DNA from: Gammaproteobacteria bacterium Ga0074134
Lineage (GTDB): Bacteria > Pseudomonadota > Gammaproteobacteria > Ga0077554 > Ga007554
Length of the DNA: 33,508 bases
NCBI GenBank assembly: GCA_001464965.1
Contig: LNEJ01000052.1
Span: forward strand, 1 to 33,508
Direction of reading: 5' to 3'
The translations under genes were made by a program, and so were the position numbers. This document shows positions 4,540 to 33,058 of this stretch, in pieces; position 1 is the first letter of the stretch; every line of letters starts with the position of its first letter. Below the pieces are notes generated by a model. It searched no databases. It was not told the DNA's origin and saw nothing but the letters and a program-made list of their open reading frames with translations.

Positions 4540-5408
4540 TTACTTTCCTGCCGCGAGCCGTGCCACTGCCCGCTGACCGCCCGGTTTACTCCCGCCATGT
4601 CCTGATGATTGCTTACCTGCTGGTAGCCGAGTCCGGTCAATATTTGTGATGCCACCTCACCCTGGTCATACCCATGTTCCAGCAGCAACCAGCCGCCGGG
4701 CAGTATGTGCTGCCGCGCCCGGCCAGCGATAAGGCGGATATCGTCCAGTCCGTCTGGGCCTGATGCCAGTGCACTCAAGGGTTCAAAGCGTATCTCGGTG
4801 CTGTTCAAGCGGGGATCATGACTGCTGACATAGGGCGGGTTGGAAACAATCAGGTGAAAGGCTGCTCCAGCAAGCGGGGCCAGCCAGTCACCTTCGCGGA
4901 ATTCGATGTTTTTGATGGCCAATGCCGCGGCATTGCGGCGCGCCACCTCCAGGGCCGCTGCGGAACGGTCGGTGGCGATGATCCGGCAGGTGGGGCGTTC
5001 GCTGGCGATGGCCAACGCGATGGCGCCTGAGCCGGTGCCGAGGTCGGCAATGCACCCTGCGGCACCGGGCGGGATGCGTTGCAGGACGAGCTCGACCAGC
5101 AGCTCTGTTTCGGGGCGGGGGATGAGGGTGGCTGGCGTGACTTCCAGTTCCATTGACCAGAATTCACGGTGACCGGTGAGATAGGCGACAGGCTCGCCCA
5201 TGGCGCGGCGTTCGATGAGGGCATTGAAGCGTGTCTGTTGTTCAGGCTGGAGTCGCCGGTCGGGCCAGGCATGGAGATGGCTACGGTTACGTTCCAGCGT
5301 GAAAGCGAGCAGTGTTTCGGCGTCAAGCCGGGCCGTGTCGTGCAGGGCGGCAAGGTGCAGGGTGGCCTGGTGTAGTGCCTCGGCGATTGTCATGGGTTTG
5401 CTTGTCAT
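4530..5408 (-). CDS. prmC: PrmC, release-factor glutamine N5-methyltransferase
   Basis: PrmC (HemK) methylates the glutamine of the GGQ motif in release factors RF1 and RF2, raising termination efficiency. The 292-residue protein has the N-terminal helical domain, an IPRPETE segment near residue 97, the SAM motif DLGTGSG at 122-128 and the diagnostic catalytic NPPY at 190-193. Two in-frame ATGs (codons 1 and 6) are possible starts; the second, giving MTIAEALHQA, matches many homologues. The last residues after RAVSGQW look like read-through into an intergenic hairpin repeat, a harmless tail. prfA, the usual neighbour, is not here, so the gene is separated from its common operon. Confidence 0.93.
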   Translation of the reverse strand: MTSKPMTIAEALHQATLHLAALHDTARLDAETLLAFTLERNRSHLHAWPDRRLQPEQQTRFNALIERRAMGEPVAYLTGHREFWSMELEVTPATLIPRPETELLVELVLQRIPPGAAGCIADLGTGSGAIALAIASERPTCRIIATDRSAAALEVARRNAAALAIKNIEFREGDWLAPLAGAAFHLIVSNPPYVSSHDPRLNSTEIRFEPLSALASGPDGLDDIRLIAGRARQHILPGGWLLLEHGYDQGEVASQILTGLGYQQVSNHQDMAGVNRAVSGQWHGSRQESKVG

Positions 5409-5468
5409 GGTCAGTAAATGTGTTTATATTGTAGCGTGTTGTATCTCACCTTGGTTTAATCCGTCCGA

Positions 5469-5777
5469 ATGATCCTGAGATTGCGTTCCATTTTGCTCGC
5501 TAAACACGGCGCCATATTCCTGGTGCTGGCGTTGCTGTTTGCGCAATTCGGACTGATCGCGCACGAGATCAACCATCAGTTTCACAAGCCCAGCACAGCC
5601 TGTGAGATGTGTCTTACGGCGCATCATCTGGGTAGCACGCCAGTCGTCAAGAGTACGCCTCTGGTGGTGTCGCGCGTGGCAGGCAATATTGCTTTGCCGA
5701 CGAACGCCGCTACGCCGATTCAACGCTTCGTCGCCAATTTCTCCGCTCGCGCCCCACCCCAATCTCTCCACGCCTGA
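5469..5777 (+). CDS. Small membrane-anchored Cys/His protein, first gene of zinc-type cluster
   Basis: This 102-residue protein has a basic N-terminus, one hydrophobic segment at about residues 14-31, and then a possible metal-binding patch: His32, His36 and His39, followed by Cys45-x-x-Cys48 and His52-His53. The rest is Pro/Thr/Val-rich without a known domain. Similar short HxxxH...CxxC proteins are, from memory, common next to metal-uptake genes, but I cannot name a family with certainty. It begins a same-strand set with an outer-membrane beta-barrel, ZnuA-like and ZnuB-like genes. A role in periplasmic metal sensing or handling is a guess from context. Confidence 0.6.
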   Translation: MILRLRSILLAKHGAIFLVLALLFAQFGLIAHEINHQFHKPSTACEMCLTAHHLGSTPVVKSTPLVVSRVAGNIALPTNAATPIQRFVANFSARAPPQSLHA

Positions 5778-5874
5778 AAAACAACCGAACCGCCAACGTC
5801 CATTAGGACGGCTTGGCACGTGTTTTTGCCGTGCGCGCGCTGCGCTGCGGTGTACTTATCGTGTGGAGAAAATA

Positions 5875-7128
5875 ATGATCAAGAAACAATTTGCCGTCAT
5901 CGGCATGGCGGCTGTTCTGTCTCAGCCAGTTATTGCCCAGGAAGAAACACAGCAAGGAACCTCGTCCGAAGCCAAGCCGGGAACAGGCGGTGAGATGCGC
6001 CGGCCCTGGCAAACGCAGCGGCCCATCATCACCAGTAATGCCTTCAATCCCGCAGTCAGCCTGATACTGTATGGCACGTACAGCCGCTTCACCAAAAGCT
6101 ATCAGGAAGACATTCATGGCTTTGCCCCGGCCGGTGACGCCCACGGTGCGACCAGGGAGGGCTTATCTCTCCAGGGGAGCGAGTTGGTCTTGTCGAGCAA
6201 TGTGGATAATAAATTCTACGGTTCGTTGATCCTCAAACTGGAAGACGGCAAGGCCCAGGTTGAGGAGGCCTTTTTTCAGACCCTTGGCTTGCCCCAGGGT
6301 TTGACCGTCAAGGGTGGGCGTTTCCTGTCTGGCATCGGTTATCTCAATGAGCAGCATCCGCATTTTTGGGATTTTGTCGATATCGCCCTGCCGTATCGTG
6401 CCATGCTTGGGGGGAATTACGGTGACGACGGTGTGCAGTTGCGCTGGGTTGCGCCTACCCCGCTGTTCGTGGAGTTTGGCGCCGAGGCGTTGCGCGGCGA
6501 GAATTTCCCGGCCTCCGGTGCGGCGAAGCGAGGTATAGGGGCGCGTAGCGCCTTCGTTAATCTCGGTGATGATGTTGGTCTCAGCCATAGCTGGCGCGCG
6601 GGCGTGGCCCGGCTGGAGGCCGATGCGCAGGGGCGCATGTTCGAGGACCATGCTCACAATGAATACAGCTTTACCGGTAAAGCGCCTCTGAACGTCGCTA
6701 ATTTTGTCTGGAAGTGGGCGCCGCTGCGTAATCCCGCTGTGACCAATTTCAAGTTTCAGGCGGAATATCTCCAGCGTGACGAGAGCGGTGCCTACACCTT
6801 CGGCTCGCCCGTGCAAGATGTGCGTTATGGCGCCAAACAGTCGGGCTGGTATGCCCAGGCGGTTTACCAGTTCATGCCGCGCTGGCGTGTGGGCGCGCGC
6901 TATGACGCGCTTAAAGGTGCCATGCCGCCTGTAGAACTGGCAGGTACGATTCTCGACCCTGAAGGCCACAAGCCGCAGCGCGCCAGTGTGATGCTCGACT
7001 TCTCCAACAGCGCGTTCAGCCGCTTGCGTGTGCAGTTCAGCCATAATCAGACCGCGCCCAAGGATGCCAACGAGATTTACCTGCAATACATCATGAGTCT
7101 GGGGGCGCACGGCGCACATAAGTTTTAG
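5875..7128 (+). CDS. Outer-membrane beta-barrel protein of the zinc-type cluster
   Basis: This 417-residue exported protein has the signal peptide MIKKQFAVIGMAAVLSQPVIA, then an acidic linker, then a barrel rich in alternating aromatic and small residues, ending in phenylalanine (HKF) as outer-membrane barrels usually do. SLILYGTYSRF begins the barrel near residue 60. ATG 5875 is preferred because GGAGA lies 7 bases upstream and a signal peptide follows directly; the longer open frame upstream lacks these. It has no TonB plug domain, so it is probably a porin-like protein. Being directly upstream of a ZnuA-like gene suggests it lets metal or metal complexes across the outer membrane. The family has no name I can give securely. 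Confidence 0.75.
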   Translation: MIKKQFAVIGMAAVLSQPVIAQEETQQGTSSEAKPGTGGEMRRPWQTQRPIITSNAFNPAVSLILYGTYSRFTKSYQEDIHGFAPAGDAHGATREGLSLQGSELVLSSNVDNKFYGSLILKLEDGKAQVEEAFFQTLGLPQGLTVKGGRFLSGIGYLNEQHPHFWDFVDIALPYRAMLGGNYGDDGVQLRWVAPTPLFVEFGAEALRGENFPASGAAKRGIGARSAFVNLGDDVGLSHSWRAGVARLEADAQGRMFEDHAHNEYSFTGKAPLNVANFVWKWAPLRNPAVTNFKFQAEYLQRDESGAYTFGSPVQDVRYGAKQSGWYAQAVYQFMPRWRVGARYDALKGAMPPVELAGTILDPEGHKPQRASVMLDFSNSAFSRLRVQFSHNQTAPKDANEIYLQYIMSLGAHGAHKF

Positions 7129-26238: not shown

Positions 26239-26865
26239 GTGCAAGTACCTGCAATTTTTCTCTCCGCGCTTGATGTTGCATTAAACGCCTGTCTGCGTCT
26301 TGACCCAGGCATCCTCCAGCGTCTGGCCGCGCTGTCTGGCAAGGTGATAGCCGTTGAACTGCGCGGATTGGATCTCACTCTCTATTTGCTGCCCGGTACG
26401 GATGGCATGCAGCTGTCGGGTGTTCATGAAGGCGCGCCGGATGCATTGCTGAGCGGCACGCCTCTGGCGTTGGCGCGGCTGGGTGCTGCGAAGCATGAGC
26501 CGGGGACATTGTTCTCGGGCGATGTGGAGATTCGTGGCGACATCGAGCTGGGGCAACGTTTTAAATCCATTCTCGACACCATCGACATCGACTGGGAGGA
26601 GCAGCTTTCCAAGCTGACAGGCGATGTCATCGCGCACCAGGTTGGCAACGCGGTGCGCGACATATTGGACTGGAGCCGCCGCGCGGCGGACACCATGGGC
26701 CGCGATGCAGCCGAATATCTGCATGAGGAAAGCCGTGACTTGCCCAAGCGCGATGAAGTGGAAGAATTCCTTGCGGGTGTCGATACGCTGCGCTCCGGCG
26801 TTGACCGGGCCGAAGCGCGTATCCACCGCTTGCACGGGCTGATGCAAAGCAGGGGTGCCGGATGA
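26239..26865 (+). CDS. ubiJ: UbiJ, SCP2-domain ubiquinone biosynthesis accessory factor
   Basis: This protein is about 208 residues from GTG 26239 (AAGG 8 bases upstream); longer in-frame starts give an unlikely N-terminus. The N-terminal SCP2 lipid-binding domain includes [11 protein letters not shown] and [21 protein letters not shown] with DWEEQLS. The C-terminal half is helical and charged. In E. coli UbiJ with UbiK helps hold lipid intermediates in the ubiquinone-synthesis complex. Its stop overlaps the ubiB start (ATGA). Confidence 0.92.
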
Positions 26866-28520
26866 TCCGCCCCGGCCAGGCGTTGCGCCTGCTGCATATC
26901 AATCGTATTCTGGTACGGCATGGGTTGGATGAAATCGTCCTTGCCACGCATCTGTTCCGTCCCTTCCGTTTTCTTCTTTATCTTATGCCATGGCGCTGGT
27001 TTGGCGTATCCCAGGAGGCGCGTGGTGTACGCATCCGGCGCGCCCTGGAAGACCTGGGGCCGATCTTTGTCAAATTCGGGCAGACGCTCTCTACGCGCCC
27101 TGATTTGCTTCCTCCTGATATTGCCCAGGAACTGACGCGGCTGCAAGACAGCGTGCCGCCGTTTCCAGGGTTGCAGGCGCGCGTGATCATCGAACAGGCC
27201 TATGGCAGGCCACTCGCAGAGGTATTTCAGAACTTCGATGAAATCCCGCTGGGCTCGGCCTCCATCGCCCAGGTGCATGCCGCGCGCCTGCACGATGGCA
27301 AAGAAGTGGTAGTCAAGGTGGTGCGCCCCAGCATCGAGCAGGTGATACAACGTGACATCGGTTTGCTCTATATCGTTGCCGATCTCGCCGAACGCTACTG
27401 GAAAGAGGCGCGGCGTCTGCGTCCGCGCGAGGTGGTGGCTGAATATGAAAAGACCATTCTCGGCGAACTCGATCTGATGCGAGAGGCGGCCAACGCCTCA
27501 CAACTGCGCCGTAATTTCACCAATTCGGATTTGCTATACGTGCCTGAGATTTACTGGCCGCAGACGCGCCGCAACGTGATGGTAATGGAGCGCATCTCCG
27601 GTACGCCGATCAGCGATATTGCATCGCTGCGGCAGCAGGCCATTGACCTCAAAAAACTGGCTGAGAAGGGTGTAGAGATTTTCTTCACCCAGGTGTTCCG
27701 CGACAACTTCTTTCACGCCGACATGCACCCCGGCAATATCTTCGTTTCCCCTCAAGGCCGTTACATCGCCGTGGACTTTGGCATCATGGGCACGCTCAGT
27801 CCCGAAGACCAGCGTTATCTCGCCGAAAATCTGCTGGCCTTCTTCAACCGCGACTACCGGCGCGTCGCCGAACTGCACGTGGAGTCCGAATGGGTGCCCG
27901 CGGGCACCCGTGTCGATGAATTCGAGTCCGCCATTCGCAGTGTCTGCGAGCCGATCTTCGAGCGCCCTCTCAAGGACATCTCCTTTGGCTATCTGCTGCT
28001 GCGTCTGTTCCAGACCGCCCGCCGTTTCAATATGGAGGTGCAGCCTCAATTGGTGCTGCTGCAAAAGACCTTGTTGAATATCGAAGGTCTGGGGCGCGAG
28101 CTGTACCCCGATCTCGACCTATGGACCACTGCCAAGCCTTTCCTGGAACGCTGGATGCGCGAACAGTTCGGGGCGCGTGCCTTGTATAAAAACCTGCGTG
28201 CCCAAATCCCGGGCTGGGCCTCAAGCCTGCCGCAACTACCTGCCCTGGTGTATGACGTCTTGCAACAAACGCGCGATGGCAAGTTGCGTGTGGAATGGCA
28301 ATCCGAGGAATTGCAAAAGATTCGCAGCGAGATCAAACGAGCCAACCAGCGCACCTTCGGCGCCATCGCCGGCGCTTCCTTGATTATCAGTGCCGCCGTC
28401 ATTAAGGCATTGGATGGCAATGCCCCCGCGATGATTGGCGGTGCGCCGCTGATCACCTGGTTGCTGGGAGGGATGGGTCTGATTATCCTCTTTCTGGCAT
28501 GGCCTGATGATAGGGATTAA
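26862..28520 (+). CDS. ubiB: UbiB, ubiquinone biosynthesis protein kinase-like factor
   Basis: This 552-residue atypical kinase-like ATPase is needed for ubiquinone production. The family KxGQ signature is [15 protein letters not shown] (71-85), followed by a kinase-like core: [30 protein letters not shown] (catalytic loop) and VDFGIMG. Two C-terminal membrane helices (about 500-548) anchor it. It ends the plus-strand run from hslV. The next gene is convergent with 47 bp between. Confidence 0.95.
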
Positions 28521-28567: not shown

Positions 28568-29827
28568 CTACCGCCTGTCCTGCGCCTTGGAAAAAAACGC
28601 CATCGGCATGCGCATCGCCAACTGCATGTCCGGTGCATCTGCGGTGATGCCGGCACCGATGGATATATTGACGCTGGTATCCGGGGTTATCCGATATGAA
28701 TACCCAAGCAGCAAAGATCCGATCTTGAGGGTTTCCGATAGCGGTATAGGTTCACCGTTCTGTTTTGTCTTTCCAATAACACTCAGGTCATAAGCGAGAC
28801 TAAACGACGCCTTCTCATTTAATGACAACCCCATCCCGAAATTAACGCCGATGGCATTGCCTGGGTCGATACGGCCATATTTCTCAAGCGTGCGTTCGAT
28901 ATTCCAAAGATAACTGACATTAGCAAAGATTACCGCCGGATCAGAGGGTATTATCATCGTCAGGCTAGGTTGCACACCCCAGAATCCGGAGCCGGTGGGC
29001 AGGGCCTTTTGCAGGCCGGTTTTCTCGTCGAACTCCACATCGTAAGGAGACGTGCCGGTATGGCTTTTGGCGCGGAAATTACCTATTACATAGGGCCAGC
29101 CACCCTGCCCCTGGGACAGTTGGTAGCGCAAAGCGAATTCGGCATCGCCAATATTTTTTCCGCCTACACTTTCAGTTATTAGTTGTTGGTCTGCGTCTGC
29201 TCCCAGATTAAGTGGGCGTGCCGTCGTGGTATCGGAACGATTCACATAGGGCAGTTTTACCTCAATCTCAAATCGAGGGGTAATGCCATAACGCGCCGCA
29301 ACAGCGGCAATGTAGGTGTCGCGGCTAACTTTTTTTATGTCGACTTTTCCAATGAGAAGCGCCGGCAGGAATGTAAATCCCTCCAGTGCCACACGATGAA
29401 CCGATGAGTTGGTATATTGCAGGGAAGGTTCCACTATAAGTGTGCCACGCGGGGTCAGTACGCCACGCTGTTCTGAACCTATGGGGATATCAGGGGGGCG
29501 CGGCCGTTCCGGAGCTTGTCCTACTGGCTTGACTGGCAGTGCATCTTTCCCTGGGAGGGATGCTGGAACGGGTGGCTTGATGGCATCTGTCGGCTTTTCC
29601 AGCAGCGTATCAAGGCGGCGGCGCATATTTTCAAGCTGGTTTTTCTGAACGTCCATCTGCTTGCGTTGTTCTTCCAGCAACTGCTGGAGTTTCTGAATAT
29701 CCGTTTTATCTCCAGAAACAGCATCTTCTCCCCACGCATGGAAAGACATTAACAATATTCCGAACAGTCCGCCGAGCGTAACTATGTTCCTTAAAATGGT
29801 AATCACAACACCCCACGATAACGGCAT
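28568..29827 (-). CDS. fapF: FapF-like outer-membrane amyloid-secretion protein
   Basis: The protein has 419 residues. A signal sequence (to about 33) is followed by a coiled coil (about 41-78: IQKLQQLLEEQRKQMDVQKN...), a Pro-rich linker (about 83-116) and a beta-barrel from about 123 (GVLTPRGTLIVEPSLQYTNSS) with repeated amphipathic strands. That order is the design of FapF, the barrel that exports Fap amyloid subunits in Pseudomonas, where the coiled coil gates the pore. It ends in DRR rather than the common terminal aromatic. It is the last gene of the amyloid operon. By sequence alone it could be a related barrel of the phenol-degradation (MetA-pathway) type; the neighbours favour FapF. 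Confidence 0.72.
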   Translation of the reverse strand: MPLSWGVVITILRNIVTLGGLFGILLMSFHAWGEDAVSGDKTDIQKLQQLLEEQRKQMDVQKNQLENMRRRLDTLLEKPTDAIKPPVPASLPGKDALPVKPVGQAPERPRPPDIPIGSEQRGVLTPRGTLIVEPSLQYTNSSVHRVALEGFTFLPALLIGKVDIKKVSRDTYIAAVAARYGITPRFEIEVKLPYVNRSDTTTARPLNLGADADQQLITESVGGKNIGDAEFALRYQLSQGQGGWPYVIGNFRAKSHTGTSPYDVEFDEKTGLQKALPTGSGFWGVQPSLTMIIPSDPAVIFANVSYLWNIERTLEKYGRIDPGNAIGVNFGMGLSLNEKASFSLAYDLSVIGKTKQNGEPIPLSETLKIGSLLLGYSYRITPDTSVNISIGAGITADAPDMQLAMRMPMAFFSKAQDRR

Positions 29828-29858
29828 TTTTAATCCCGTCTATATGCTGTTCCTTGGT

Positions 29859-30335
29859 TTACCGGATAGAAGCCGCTAGCTGATCAGTTAATGATGAGTG
29901 CAGTGTACCCAATGCGAAAGATCGGAGATTCGAGATTTCTGCATTAATGAGGGTGAAATTCTGAATAGTCTTGAAGTCCTGGGAATTTTGTATCAACGTT
30001 ATAAAGCCGGCGGGAAAAATACTGGCCATATCATGCTGGTGATTATTGGTTATTTTTGATTGCGGGATATCAATAACCGTTCTCGACACAAGGCCGCCGT
30101 CTATAATCACAGCACGCTCGATGCTGAAATTTATCTGCAATCCATCTGAAGTTATAAACCCGCCACGCAGAGTATCCAGCGTGTCATCATCAAGCCATTG
30201 GATATGTTCTGGGTCGTTTTCATCAGCCATGGCCTGGAGCGGCGCAACAATGGCTGCGCATGAAACAAACGAGCCAGAAAAAATACCCCACGCGATACTT
30301 GGGAGGCAATGCAATATTCGATGCAGGCTCATCAT
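29859..30335 (-). CDS. Small exported protein with double-glycine-like motif (possible minor amyloid subunit)
   Basis: The protein has 158 residues. An N-terminal signal region ends near residue 37 (AMA). WLDDDTLDTLRGG (47-59) then fits the double-glycine leader pattern: Leu at -12, -7 and -4 and Gly-Gly at -2/-1. A segment at about 107-136 (GFITLIQNS...IQNFTLINAEI) resembles the C-terminal module of the two upstream Asn-rich proteins. Lying between the C39 peptidase and FapF-like genes, it sits where fapE does in Pseudomonas, but it is shorter than I expect for FapE. The peptidase next door may process it; that is inference. Confidence 0.65.
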   Translation of the reverse strand: MMSLHRILHCLPSIAWGIFSGSFVSCAAIVAPLQAMADENDPEHIQWLDDDTLDTLRGGFITSDGLQINFSIERAVIIDGGLVSRTVIDIPQSKITNNHQHDMASIFPAGFITLIQNSQDFKTIQNFTLINAEISNLRSFALGTLHSSLTDQLAASIR

Positions 30336-30361
30336 GGGATCGTCTGTTTACAGCCACAGCC

Positions 30362-31045
30362 TCAAAAATCATAGCTATTAGGCAACAGCAATGCCGATGA
30401 AGACAGGCCATCACGGTTTACCGCCGCCTCCAAAGGCGCTTGTTCACGCACCTTCCATTCTTTTTTACTATTAAAATATTTTACCGCTATATCTTCCTTG
30501 TTGCGGATAATAAAAAGGATCCTATTCCACATTGCTTCAAATTCCTGGCGCGGGATGATCTTTGTGCCCATGGCGGGGTCCGCTACCAATACCTGGGTGC
30601 TGCTCACTCCTTTGACCACAACAAAATGATTATAGCCATGATCATTAATCAGTGTGATGGCAGGAACTCCCTTTTTTGACAGCATATCCAGTGGTGCAAC
30701 AAAACCATCGGCGCGGTAGCCGTTTTCTTCAAGATAACGTTTTATGTCAAGCAGAGAAAAACCTTCTCTATGAATCTTCTCCTTGTTACCCTTTTCATAC
30801 ATGGCTGTCAATACAGTCTGTTCGTTGACGGGATTTTGATAAAAATACGTCAACAATGTCGCCAGCGCTGCTGACCCGCAACTGAAATCATATTGCTGCT
30901 TCACTACCGTCAGAAAGCGGGCTTCCTTCATGCTAACCACCGGCACCGAAAAACTTCCCCCGGCACCCGTGATGCTCAGTGAATCCGCCTTGGTCGTCGC
31001 AGCAACGGAAAAAACAGCCATGAATACGATTATAAAAAAGCGCAT
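30362..31045 (-). CDS. fapD: Exported C39-family cysteine peptidase, FapD-like
   Basis: The protein has 227 residues. A signal peptide (to about residue 20, TTKA) directs it to the periplasm. The C39 peptidase triad is complete: Cys56 in QYDFSCGSAALATLL with oxyanion Gln50 six residues before, His140 in DHGYNHFVVVKG, and Asp156 in VADPAMG. No ABC transporter domains follow, unlike bacteriocin exporters. A free exported C39 peptidase inside an operon of Asn-rich secreted proteins and a coiled-coil barrel is the hallmark of fapD. It starts only 4 bp after the previous gene ends. Likely substrates are subunits or the barrel of this system. Confidence 0.85.
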   Translation of the reverse strand: MRFFIIVFMAVFSVAATTKADSLSITGAGGSFSVPVVSMKEARFLTVVKQQYDFSCGSAALATLLTYFYQNPVNEQTVLTAMYEKGNKEKIHREGFSLLDIKRYLEENGYRADGFVAPLDMLSKKGVPAITLINDHGYNHFVVVKGVSSTQVLVADPAMGTKIIPRQEFEAMWNRILFIIRNKEDIAVKYFNSKKEWKVREQAPLEAAVNRDGLSSSALLLPNSYDF

Positions 31046-31049
31046 GGGA

Positions 31050-31415
31050 TTAGTTGTTCAGCGTCATGTTCAATATAGTATTATTCTGAATAATCACATT
31101 GTTTCCTGAGTTTTGAATCACCGTCGGAAATCCTATTGAGTCCGCAAACGCCCCTCTTCCAACATTATTGTTTCCATTTATGCTGGAATAAACCACATTA
31201 TCATTCAGCCTCGCATTTAAATCCGCGTTACTGAGCGGCTGGTCTGGCGCACCCGCCCGGCCGCTTTGCTCTTGCAGATGATCATTGGAAACGGCCTCGC
31301 CGAACTCGACATCATCGGTGGCTGCATTGTCTTGATTCGCCAGCGCCGGGTTGATCCCGCCCCCACAGGCAACCAGAACGATGGCCGCAATAATACGACA
31401 CGCTCTATAGTGCAT
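31050..31415 (-). CDS. Small exported Asn-rich protein, probable amyloid subunit or nucleator
   Basis: The protein has 121 residues. The N-terminus has both a lipobox-like LVAC (Cys17) and a signal-peptidase I site (ALA/NQ), so it may be a lipoprotein or a soluble exported protein. The middle is acidic. Residues 76-121 (SINGNNNVGRGAF... VIQNSGNNVIIQNNTI) align with the last 45 residues of the large repeat protein upstream. Together with its place in the operon this suggests a minor subunit or nucleator, comparable to FapB or FapA in role, but I cannot match it one-to-one. It follows the terminator at 31438-31471. Confidence 0.65.
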   Translation of the reverse strand: MHYRACRIIAAIVLVACGGGINPALANQDNAATDDVEFGEAVSNDHLQEQSGRAGAPDQPLSNADLNARLNDNVVYSSINGNNNVGRGAFADSIGFPTVIQNSGNNVIIQNNTILNMTLNN

Positions 31416-31437
31416 GGCCTGTTCTCCTGTCTCTATG

Positions 31438-31471
31438 AAAAAACCGGCGGACGCACTGAGCGTCCGCCGGT
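31438..31471 (-). terminator. Intrinsic terminator between amyloid subunit gene and accessory genes
   Basis: On the minus strand ACCGGCGGACGC (31471-31460) pairs perfectly with GCGTCCGCCGGT (31454-31443) around a 5-nt loop, followed by TTTTTT to 31438. It lies 13 bp past the major subunit stop and 22 bp before the next start codon. Partial readthrough would give much subunit mRNA and little accessory mRNA. Confidence 0.85.
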
Positions 31472-31483
31472 GATGTGAGGCAG

Positions 31484-32905
31484 TTACGGGCTTACATTAC
31501 CCTGTATCGTGAAGTTTTGCTGAACCAGGCTGTTGTGCCCAGTGTTTTGCGCCACCTGGGAAATGCCTGTGTTGCTGGCAACTGAGCCATTATCAATGGT
31601 GTTGTTGCCATTGTAAGTACTGGCAGGAGGCGTGCTTCCAGTATTGATGTTAACCGTATTACCGCTGACGGCACCATCCAGGGCGGCAGAGGCAACGGTG
31701 TGAACACTGCTGTCATTGTTGGAGTTGTTGACGCTGCTGTTGTTGTTGGAGTCGTTGACGCTGTTGTTGCTTTGGTCAACGGTCGCACCACGCGTAGCGA
31801 CGATACCAGTGTTGTCATGGATGTCGTCGCTATCGGTGATTGTGGTGTTATTGGAGTTGTTGGTGCTGTTGTTGCTTTGGTCAACAGATGCGCCGCGGGT
31901 CGCAAGAACGCCGCTGTTACCCGAGTTGTTGTCACTATCCGTGGTGTTGTTAGAGTTGTTGACGCTGCTGTTGTTGTTGGAATCGTTGACGCTATTGTTG
32001 CTATTGTCAACGGAGACGGTCGCGTTGCGTGTGGCTACAACACTTCCTGTCCCGCTAGCTGTGTTGTTGTCGTTGTCAGCAGTGGTGGTTGTTGTGTTGT
32101 TAGAGTCATTGATGCTCTTGTTGTTGTTGGCATCGTTGGTGCTCTTGTTGTTGTTGGTATCAGCGGTATTCACGCTCTTGTCATTGTTGGCATCAGAGGT
32201 GTTGGTGCTGTTATTGGAATTATCGGTGCTAGTAGTTGTCGCTGTTGTCGTGTTGTTAGAGTCGTTGGTGCTCTTGTTGTTATTGGCATCATTTGTACTC
32301 TTGTTGTTATTGGCATCGGCAGTATTCACACTCTTGTCATTATTGGCGTCAGAGGTGTTGGTGCTATTATTGGAACTATCGGTGCTGGTTGTTGTAGTAG
32401 TAGCGGTAGTGCTCTTGTCGTTGTTGGTATCAGAGGTGTTTGTGCTCTTGTCGTTGTTGGCATCAGAGGTGTTGATGCTGTTGTTGGAGCTGTCAGTACT
32501 GCTTGTGGTAGTAGTGGTGCTCTTGTTGTTGTTGGCGTCAGAGGTGTTGGTGCTCTTGTTGTTGTTGGCGTCCGAGGTGTTAGTGCTATTGTTGGAGCTG
32601 TCAGTGCTGCTTGTGGTAGTGCTCTTGTCGTTATTGGTGTCGGATGTGTTGGTGCTCTTGTTGTTGTTGGCGTCGGACGTGTTGGTGCTGCTATTGCTGC
32701 TGTCGGTATTGCCGTTGTTGGAATCGCTGGTGCTGGTTGCGTTCGAGGCTTCGTTCGCGGATGTTCCTTTGTTATCGGCAGAGGACGATGCCGTGGCAGT
32801 CTGTGACTGAGCCGATTCTGTCGCGGTGTTGCTGGGATTTGCCCAGGCCTGGCTTGAAATTCCCAGCGCAAGCGCGATCGCAGTAGAAAGTAGCGTCTTA
32901 TTCAT
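31484..32905 (-). CDS. Exported Asn/Ser/Thr/Asp repeat protein, probable major amyloid subunit (FapC-like)
   Basis: The protein has 473 residues. The signal peptide is residues 1-22 (MNKTLLSTAIALALGISSQA then WA). Residues about 67-272 are five tandem superblocks starting TDSSNNST and containing units such as NTSDANNNKS; this part has no Pro, Cys or aromatic residue and one Lys about every ten residues. Residues 289-400 hold three repeats beginning (V/L/I)ATR(G/N)A(T/S)V followed by DQSNNSVNDSNNN-type runs. The C-terminus (429-473) has YNGNNTIDNG and QNTGHNSLVQQNFTIQGN. GGAGG precedes the ATG. The composition, repeats and operon point to an extracellular amyloid fibre protein of the Fap type. 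No close sequence match to known FapC can be claimed by eye. Confidence 0.8.
   Translation of the reverse strand: MNKTLLSTAIALALGISSQAWANPSNTATESAQSQTATASSSADNKGTSANEASNATSTSDSNNGNTDSSNSSTNTSDANNNKSTNTSDTNNDKSTTTSSTDSSNNSTNTSDANNNKSTNTSDANNNKSTTTTTSSTDSSNNSINTSDANNDKSTNTSDTNNDKSTTATTTTTSTDSSNNSTNTSDANNDKSVNTADANNNKSTNDANNNKSTNDSNNTTTATTTSTDNSNNSTNTSDANNDKSVNTADTNNNKSTNDANNNKSINDSNNTTTTTADNDNNTASGTGSVVATRNATVSVDNSNNSVNDSNNNSSVNNSNNTTDSDNNSGNSGVLATRGASVDQSNNSTNNSNNTTITDSDDIHDNTGIVATRGATVDQSNNSVNDSNNNSSVNNSNNDSSVHTVASAALDGAVSGNTVNINTGSTPPASTYNGNNTIDNGSVASNTGISQVAQNTGHNSLVQQNFTIQGNVSP
31706..32041 (-). repeat. Three ATR-type repeats in the amyloid gene
   Basis: Residues 289-400 contain three copies starting VVATRNATV (289), VLATRGASV (333) and IVATRGATV (368), 44 and 35 residues apart. 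Each is followed by Asn/Ser/Asp-rich runs ending near SSVNNSNN in copies 1 and 3. In Fap and curli proteins, such imperfect repeats form the cross-beta core, so this is the best candidate core here besides the C-terminus. Confidence 0.7.
32090..32707 (-). repeat. Hierarchical tandem repeat array in the amyloid gene
   Basis: Five superblocks begin at residues 67, 101, 137, 175 and 227 (TDSS or TDNS). Each has two or more NT(S/A)D(A/T)NN(N/D)KS units of about ten residues, and a Thr-rich joint follows most blocks. The last two blocks are longer because an extra NDANNNKS(T/I)NDSNN was added to both, showing block duplication after the extension. It is prone to copy-number change. Confidence 0.85.
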
Positions 32906-33058
32906 TGTAGCCTCCGTGTTACCTTGTTGGACATTAAACCTTTTTACCCTAGAAACGTCGTTATTTATAGAGAGATAGAGAGAAAGTCTTTACGATCTTT
33001 CAGGTTGGATTTATTCACTATTCGTGCCATCAGCTTGTTTCCGGCATGTAACAATATG

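Follow-up and report, generated by a model that had tools for sequence, protein, structure and literature searches.

The DNA analysed here, called the window throughout, comprises the 33,508 nucleotides at positions 1 to 33,508 of contig LNEJ01000052.1 of Gammaproteobacteria bacterium Ga0074134 (assembly GCA_001464965.1). Its last 5 kb hold five closely spaced open reading frames (ORFs), all on the minus strand, which a first-pass annotation made from the sequence alone had read as a divergent version of the Fap functional amyloid system (fapABCDEF in Pseudomonas). All five ORFs were found at the place indicated there, and the comparisons reported below identify the operon as a member of a widespread sister clade of canonical Fap, not as a canonical fapABCDEF operon.

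Organization of the operon

From upstream to downstream, the operon consists of gene 1 (31484..32905), which encodes a large exported subunit of 473 residues; gene 2 (31050..31415), for a small exported protein of 121 residues with a single repeat; gene 3 (30362..31045), for an exported C39 peptidase of 227 residues homologous to FapD; gene 4 (29859..30335), for a FapE-like exported protein of 158 residues; and gene 5 (28568..29827), for a FapF homologue of 419 residues. The successive intergenic gaps are 68, 4, 26 and 31 nt. The same proteins recur in the same order in 83 loci, and so the arrangement is more than a product of chance.

The order fapABCDEF, to which the first-pass annotation had likened the operon, holds for the D-E-F part, but not further upstream: gene 2 and its relatives are short, carry one repeat and follow the large subunit, whereas the three-repeat fapB precedes fapC. 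The five genes account for the whole operon, with no sixth gene for FapA; this is a difference from Fap, although fapA has often been lost from known fap operons.

The C39 peptidase and the barrel protein

Genes 3 and 5 are homologues of FapD and FapF, respectively. In the family profile search that had been proposed as a check, gene 3 matched the NCBIfam model of FapD (NF058616, E = 3.3e-41, 141 bits) and gene 5 that of FapF (NF058560, E = 2.4e-41, 141.9 bits), both below the equivalog cut-offs (330 and 700), while genes 1, 2 and 4 gave no match at all in Pfam, NCBIfam or PHROGs. Curli identity was rejected, as none of the five proteins matched the curlin, CsgG, CsgE or CsgF families in Pfam or NCBIfam.

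The peptidase does possess the full triad attributed to it, the C39 motif residues Gln50, Cys56, His140 and Asp156 being invariant in an alignment of six relatives. The description of gene 5 as a coiled coil followed by a beta-barrel was likewise borne out by its AlphaFold model (mean predicted local distance difference test score, pLDDT, 84), which displays a signal helix (residues 5-26), a coiled-coil helix (41-77), a low-confidence linker (approximately 78-115) and a 12-strand barrel. When this model was submitted to Foldseek, the 18 best matches were FapF crystal structures, headed by 5o67 and 5o65 (E = 2.6e-22, template modelling score 0.81 by target length), and the next was a COG4313 channel. 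A profile of gene 5 relatives compared with PDB chains matched only FapF (E = 2.5e-61). The periplasmic C39 peptidase and the protein combining a coiled coil with a 12-strand barrel are thus features in common with Fap.

A pair formed by a C39 peptidase and a FapF-like barrel is also found in the Fil pilus of Acinetobacter (FilABCDEF, in which FilB is the C39 protein and FilC the barrel), and gene 3 matches FilB (E = 1.2e-34) as gene 5 does FilC (E = 9.1e-16). These matches are nevertheless weaker than those to FapD and FapF; furthermore, the Acinetobacter locus contains a different candidate subunit family, is matched by none of the profiles for gene 2, gene 4 and the repeat, and lies outside the window's clade in both phylogenetic trees. 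It is extremely unlikely that the operon encodes a Fil-type pilus, and this membership was rejected on the grounds of subunit family, profile searches and tree positions. In the Acinetobacter Fil-like locus (L170:~4600-6700), a MQSMDDAALSAATGQDG-type candidate subunit is encoded just upstream of the C39/barrel genes. A protein of the same type (MQAMTDTAMSNATGQDG) stands beside the C39/barrel pair of locus L036 and represents a further C39/barrel-linked family.

The large subunit and its spacer

The gene 1 product begins with a Sec signal (residues ~1-23) and a conserved head (24-57), continues with an array rich in Asn, Ser, Thr and Asp (58 to ~290) and three ATR-spaced Asn/Ser segments (291-404), and ends in a C-terminal module (405-473; 31484..31693, minus strand) that contains one Fap-type repeat (NTIDNGSVASNTGISQVAQNTGHNSLVQQNFTI), with a repeat profile match at 405-472. 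The first-pass annotation had noted an array of 200 residues devoid of aromatic residues, Pro and Cys. The composition is correct, but the length is not: Phe, Trp, Tyr, Pro and Cys are all absent from residues 25-425, a stretch of 401 residues. Residues 53-292 draw on just nine kinds of amino acid, and identity recurs there with periods of 11 and 52 residues; hydrophobic residues are all but absent from the array.

Across the clade, the spacer is hypervariable, neither length, sequence, period nor composition class being conserved, and at one extreme it is rich in Asn, Ser, Thr and Asp (up to 84%), at the other in Gly and Ala (up to 57%). The array that had been singled out as unusual is present, as one among several spacer types that the clade uses interchangeably. 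Among near relatives, identity is 52–63% in the array, with many gaps, and 73–95% in the C-terminal repeat.

Concerning the part of the subunit that could form a fibre core, the earlier suggestion of the ATR repeats is not supported and was rejected: the motif was found only in four genomes, all of the window's own family, and this makes it an unlikely amyloid core. The array itself might be considered instead, for instance as an Asn-ladder beta-solenoid of the 11-residue unit, with the C-terminal repeat acting only in nucleation; its 11-residue period is strong, and Asn-rich arrays can form amyloid-like ladders. It seems very unlikely, however, that an ordered core should vary in sequence, in period and in composition class (Asn/Ser/Thr/Asp versus Gly/Ala) across the clade, diverge faster than the repeat among near relatives and be almost without hydrophobic residues. 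The C-terminal repeat is the sole widely conserved core-like element of the large subunit.

The repeat shared by the exported proteins

Full fap operons from three genomes of the class (L034, L035 and L037), which were also the source of the canonical FapE profile A2, served as the yardstick for canonical Fap; this set is taken as genuine Fap because its FapB profile matches the solved FapC. In canonical FapB and FapC from 15 loci, three repeats were found almost throughout, and FapE had one where it was detected. In a published survey, 94% of FapC carry three repeats, and repeats of the FapB/FapC type form the cross-beta core of FapC, with one 4.8 Å layer per repeat (PMC12392863).

Since the canonical repeat profile gave no direct match to the window proteins, profile-profile comparisons built on relatives were used. 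They indicated that genes 1, 2 and 4 share the same C-terminal repeat and that it is detectably homologous to the Fap repeats. The C-termini of genes 1 and 2 aligned with each other over 58 columns (hhalign P = 1.5e-10). Against the canonical FapB/FapC repeat, gene 1 gave P = 8.9e-5 (score 22.3 versus a shuffled-control maximum of 17.5) and gene 2 gave P = 2.6e-6 over 36 columns (score 29.0 versus a maximum of 13.8 in 100 column-shuffled alignments, the reversed alignment giving nothing). The C-terminus of gene 4 compared with the canonical repeat alone gave no significant match, and its assignment as a Fap-type repeat thus goes through gene 2. When the canonical repeat profile was run over 5745 ORFs, the best non-canonical matches were relatives of genes 2 and 1. 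In the reverse direction, the clade repeat profile matched canonical FapB mostly three times each (best E = 7.6e-5), and its top 15 matches in the canonical set were all FapB, FapC or FapE. Both systems, then, export subunits that combine homologous Asn/Gln repeats with linkers that are long and variable. The difference lies in the number of repeats, one per clade subunit versus usually three of 37–39 residues in FapB and FapC.

A single C-terminal repeat was counted in 75 of 77 non-redundant subunits (79 listed, two duplicates removed, a few of the ORFs being truncated); the exceptions have 4 copies (L032) and 15 copies (L085). The latter, from a relative in Kiloniellales (L085:36-3305), is a subunit of 1089 residues whose 15 tandem repeats are of the form VQQNNGxxN. 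The residues outside the repeat amount to a median of 382 per repeat in clade subunits versus 96 in canonical FapC. If each repeat makes one 4.8 Å layer, as it does in FapC, the disordered mass per fibre length would be about four times the canonical value.

These data may also be read in a way that dispenses with long amyloid fibres. The repeat would then be mainly a secretion and docking module for the FapF-like pore and the gene 2 and gene 4 proteins, and single subunits would be displayed as hydrophilic stalks, or a brush, on the cell surface. Such a role would suit the repeat as the one element common to all three predicted exported proteins, as one copy per subunit is the minimum for docking, and it would suit a spacer hypervariable in length and composition whose density per layer would be some fourfold the canonical one. 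On the other hand, the homology of the repeat to the FapB/FapC repeats, the cross-beta core of FapC (PMC12392863), and the relatives with 4 and 15 copies, as expected for a stacking unit, speak for a structural role in a fibre, and we consider the display of isolated subunits unlikely.

FapE likeness and double-glycine leader of gene 4

The gene 4 product consists of a Sec signal, a leader (LDDDTLDTLRGG) that extends up to residue 59, a conserved FapE-like segment and the C-terminal repeat. A direct search of the window's genome with profile A2 (three rows) gave no match, and the likeness to canonical FapE emerged from profile comparison (hhalign probability 90%, P = 1.5e-6), where the two proteins share a segment in which the RGG of gene 4 is aligned with RG[KR]. 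A FapE-like protein with an RG[GKR] motif and a C-terminal repeat is therefore a further likeness to Fap.

In the alignment of gene 4 relatives, RGG is invariant, and its context, LSxxELxxMRGGF, corresponds to the double-glycine leader seen in C39 substrates. The motif LxxxRGG was present in 79 of 82 gene 4 proteins and 45 of 83 gene 2 proteins; none of the large subunits had it, and among other ORFs of similar length it occurred in 22 of 1859 (1.2%). Gene 4 and many gene 2 proteins are therefore probable substrates of the C39 peptidase, as judged from their leaders. In the window, the predicted cleavage signal of gene 4 is LDDDTLDTLRGG (residues 48-59; 30159..30194, minus strand); gene 4 reads LDDDTLDTLRGGF here, with the cut predicted after Gly59. 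The clade differs from Fap in having true double-glycine leaders on gene 4 and, in many cases, on gene 2. With double-glycine export by peptidase-containing ATP-binding cassette transporters it shares the C39 peptidase and a leader, LxxxRGG, of the LSxxELxxIxGG type; here, unlike in those systems, the peptidase stands alone as a Sec-exported periplasmic protein and is not a transporter domain.

In most of the canonical loci examined, FapE has the motif LSDxELxxMRG[RK][FY] at about residues 50-66, where it aligns with the gene 4 leader. This position fits published observations on Pseudomonas sp. UK4, where FapE gave no detectable peptides before about residue 70 (PMC5557850). In the same strain, secretion of FapC needs Cys38 of FapD, the target of FapD being described as unclear (PMC5557850). 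The leader pattern, the gene 4/FapE alignment and the UK4 data on FapD and FapE together make RG[GKR] the best candidate for the cut site.

Distribution and phylogeny of the clade

A search of species-representative genomes with six gene 3 sequences yielded 549 relatives, of which the best 80 were kept and read. Together with the window and loci from whole genomes, they gave 83 non-redundant loci that hold relatives of genes 2, 3 and 4 in the same arrangement; these counts are not independent, because the Ralstonia and Methylobacter loci are near copies. A gene 5 relative was present in the fetched stretch in 76 of the 83, on the same strand in 39 of these 76. The hosts span Beta-, Gamma-, Alpha- and Deltaproteobacteria and include Geotalea, Geomonas, Desulfopila, Methylobacter, Nitrosomonas, Ralstonia, Burkholderia, Variovorax, Lysobacter, Luteimonas and Rhodospirillales, with Cupriavidus metallidurans CH34 and Croceicoccus marinus as further hosts from plasmid records. 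In the RefSeq record of the Croceicoccus operon, the successive names are hypothetical, hypothetical, C39 family peptidase, hypothetical and transporter.

Among 369 genomes of the class, the gene 4 profile (A3) matched 15, or 14 after removal of G367, where the match was weak and fell on a canonical FapE, and A2 matched 15. By this sampling, the clade thus appears to be roughly as frequent as canonical Fap. The two systems occur together only in G019, where one contig (G019:C11; L033 and L037) carries a window-type operon about 90 kb from a canonical fapABCDEF operon, the two being a natural pair for comparison. Canonical FapE was not found in any of 28 named clade genomes.

In the maximum-likelihood trees, canonical Fap and the clade each occupy one side of a branch, with supports of 98/96 and 99/98, respectively, for C39 and of 99/98 and 84/99 for FapF. 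In both trees, which have no resolved root, Fil and other C39-barrel pairs fall outside the two groups. Neither the peptidase nor the barrel groups with unrelated families, the outcome that had been named as refuting the first reading: both are FapD/FapF-like, though in a clade of their own.

An ordinary, divergent fap operon with a shortened FapC would also provide homologues of FapD, FapE and FapF in D-E-F order, and wide variation of the linkers is equally known from canonical FapC, where L2 has 35–259 residues (PMC12392863). We hold this to be improbable. The scores with the FapD and FapF models are far below the equivalog cut-offs, neither FapA nor three-repeat FapB/FapC is present, and the canonical FapB profile matches all 4 positive genomes but none of the 10 clade genomes; plain fap membership was rejected mainly because the trees and the co-residence of both systems in G019 disfavour it. 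Three-repeat subunits, FapA and a canonical position in the trees are all missing, and the operon is therefore classed as a sister variant of Fap. What stands of the first reading as a divergent Fap system is the presence of FapD, FapE and FapF homologues and of Fap-type repeats; what has changed is that the operon belongs to a large clade of its own.

Ralstonia pickettii has been listed as Fap-positive in PMC3792158 and PMC6173800. In strain SSH4 (L064), the clade operon is present, and canonical FapE and FapB were not found with the profiles used. Earlier surveys may have counted some clade members as Fap. Colocalised fapD-fapF homologues outside canonical fap were noted in five further phyla in 2018 (PMC6173800); the passage that reports them describes no subunits, leaders or operon.

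Upstream region and chromosomal setting

A promoter candidate, a sigma-54-like -24/-12 element (TGGCACGAATAGTGAA; 33014..33029, minus strand) that agrees with the consensus at 10 of 12 positions, lies upstream of gene 1 at a distance of 124 to 109 nt. Such elements recur across the clade: in 31 of 74 loci the region upstream of gene 1 holds one that scores at least 10, compared with about 2% of shuffles. Sigma-54 activator genes are present within 30 of the 83 clade loci and within 11 of the 15 canonical ones.

On the strand opposite to gene 1 run two long ORFs, 31700-32806 (368 residues) and 31716-32810 (364 residues), both on the plus strand and rich in Val/Ile/Ala and in Leu. They are probably by-products of the stop-free repeat array and not genes. 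The window operon adjoins ubiB (26862-28520), and that of a congener (G003; L029, G003:C5) lies between the genes for an alpha-glucan phosphorylase and a resistance-nodulation-division (RND) pump. The operon was not found in two further congeners, G001 (78% complete) and G002 (99% complete). The differing chromosomal sites and these two absences suggest gain, loss or transfer.

Proposed mechanism and significance

It seems reasonable to interpret that the operon works like a Fap-type amyloid secretion system. The products of genes 1, 2 and 4 would be exported by Sec, after which the periplasmic gene 3 peptidase would recognise LxxxRGG on gene 4, and on gene 2 in many relatives, and cut off a short pro-segment. 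Once processed, the proteins of genes 2 and 4 would start secretion and assembly, gene 2 acting as nucleator, in a role that may be FapB-like, and gene 4 as anchor. The three proteins, with one Fap-type repeat each, would leave through the FapF-like trimeric barrel. The large subunit would stack through its single C-terminal repeat, one 4.8 Å cross-beta layer per molecule, and the approximately 390 hydrophilic residues outside the repeat would stay disordered, forming a dense brush that sets the surface chemistry of the fibre. That the operon encodes an extracellular fibre system of this FapD/FapF-driven kind is, in our judgement, probable, though well short of certain. The gene content, the homologies, the single repeat, the leader motif with its distribution and the structure of the clade are results of the comparisons; the cut site, the roles of nucleator and anchor, the cross-beta stacking and the brush are inferences.

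Several observations weigh against this interpretation. The canonical FapB/FapC repeat profile misses the window's own proteins even at E = 10, the link running through relatives. The leader of the window's gene 2 is degenerate (LQEQSGRAG), whereas many relatives have LxxxRGG. An AlphaFold model of five stacked repeats from L085 had a mean pLDDT of 40 and, being uninformative, was not used. With about 390 residues to each 4.8 Å layer, the brush would be much denser than that of known FapC, and steric hindrance may make stacking difficult.

A broader proposal may be advanced tentatively, as one that could well prove wrong. The clade would be an unnamed, widespread class of amyloids in which one cross-beta layer per subunit is combined with a spacer of hundreds of residues and interchangeable chemistry, as in a bottle-brush, and in which accessory proteins are matured by C39 peptidases at a double-glycine site; LSDxELxxMRG[RK] would, by extension, be the site of FapD cleavage in canonical FapE. 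FapD was shown to be essential, and in the accounts given in PMC5557850 and PMC6173800 its substrate has since been an open question. As exactly two of the three exported proteins bear a double-glycine leader, the position of the cut is open to direct test and can be transferred to the aligned motif in FapE.

The clade subunits are missed by the canonical repeat profile built here and are unnamed in the RefSeq record examined, so that biofilm amyloids may be under-counted, which may concern methanotrophs, nitrifiers, metal reducers and Burkholderiales. With one core repeat each, these subunits constitute a natural series for following the effect of spacer length and chemistry on fibre properties.

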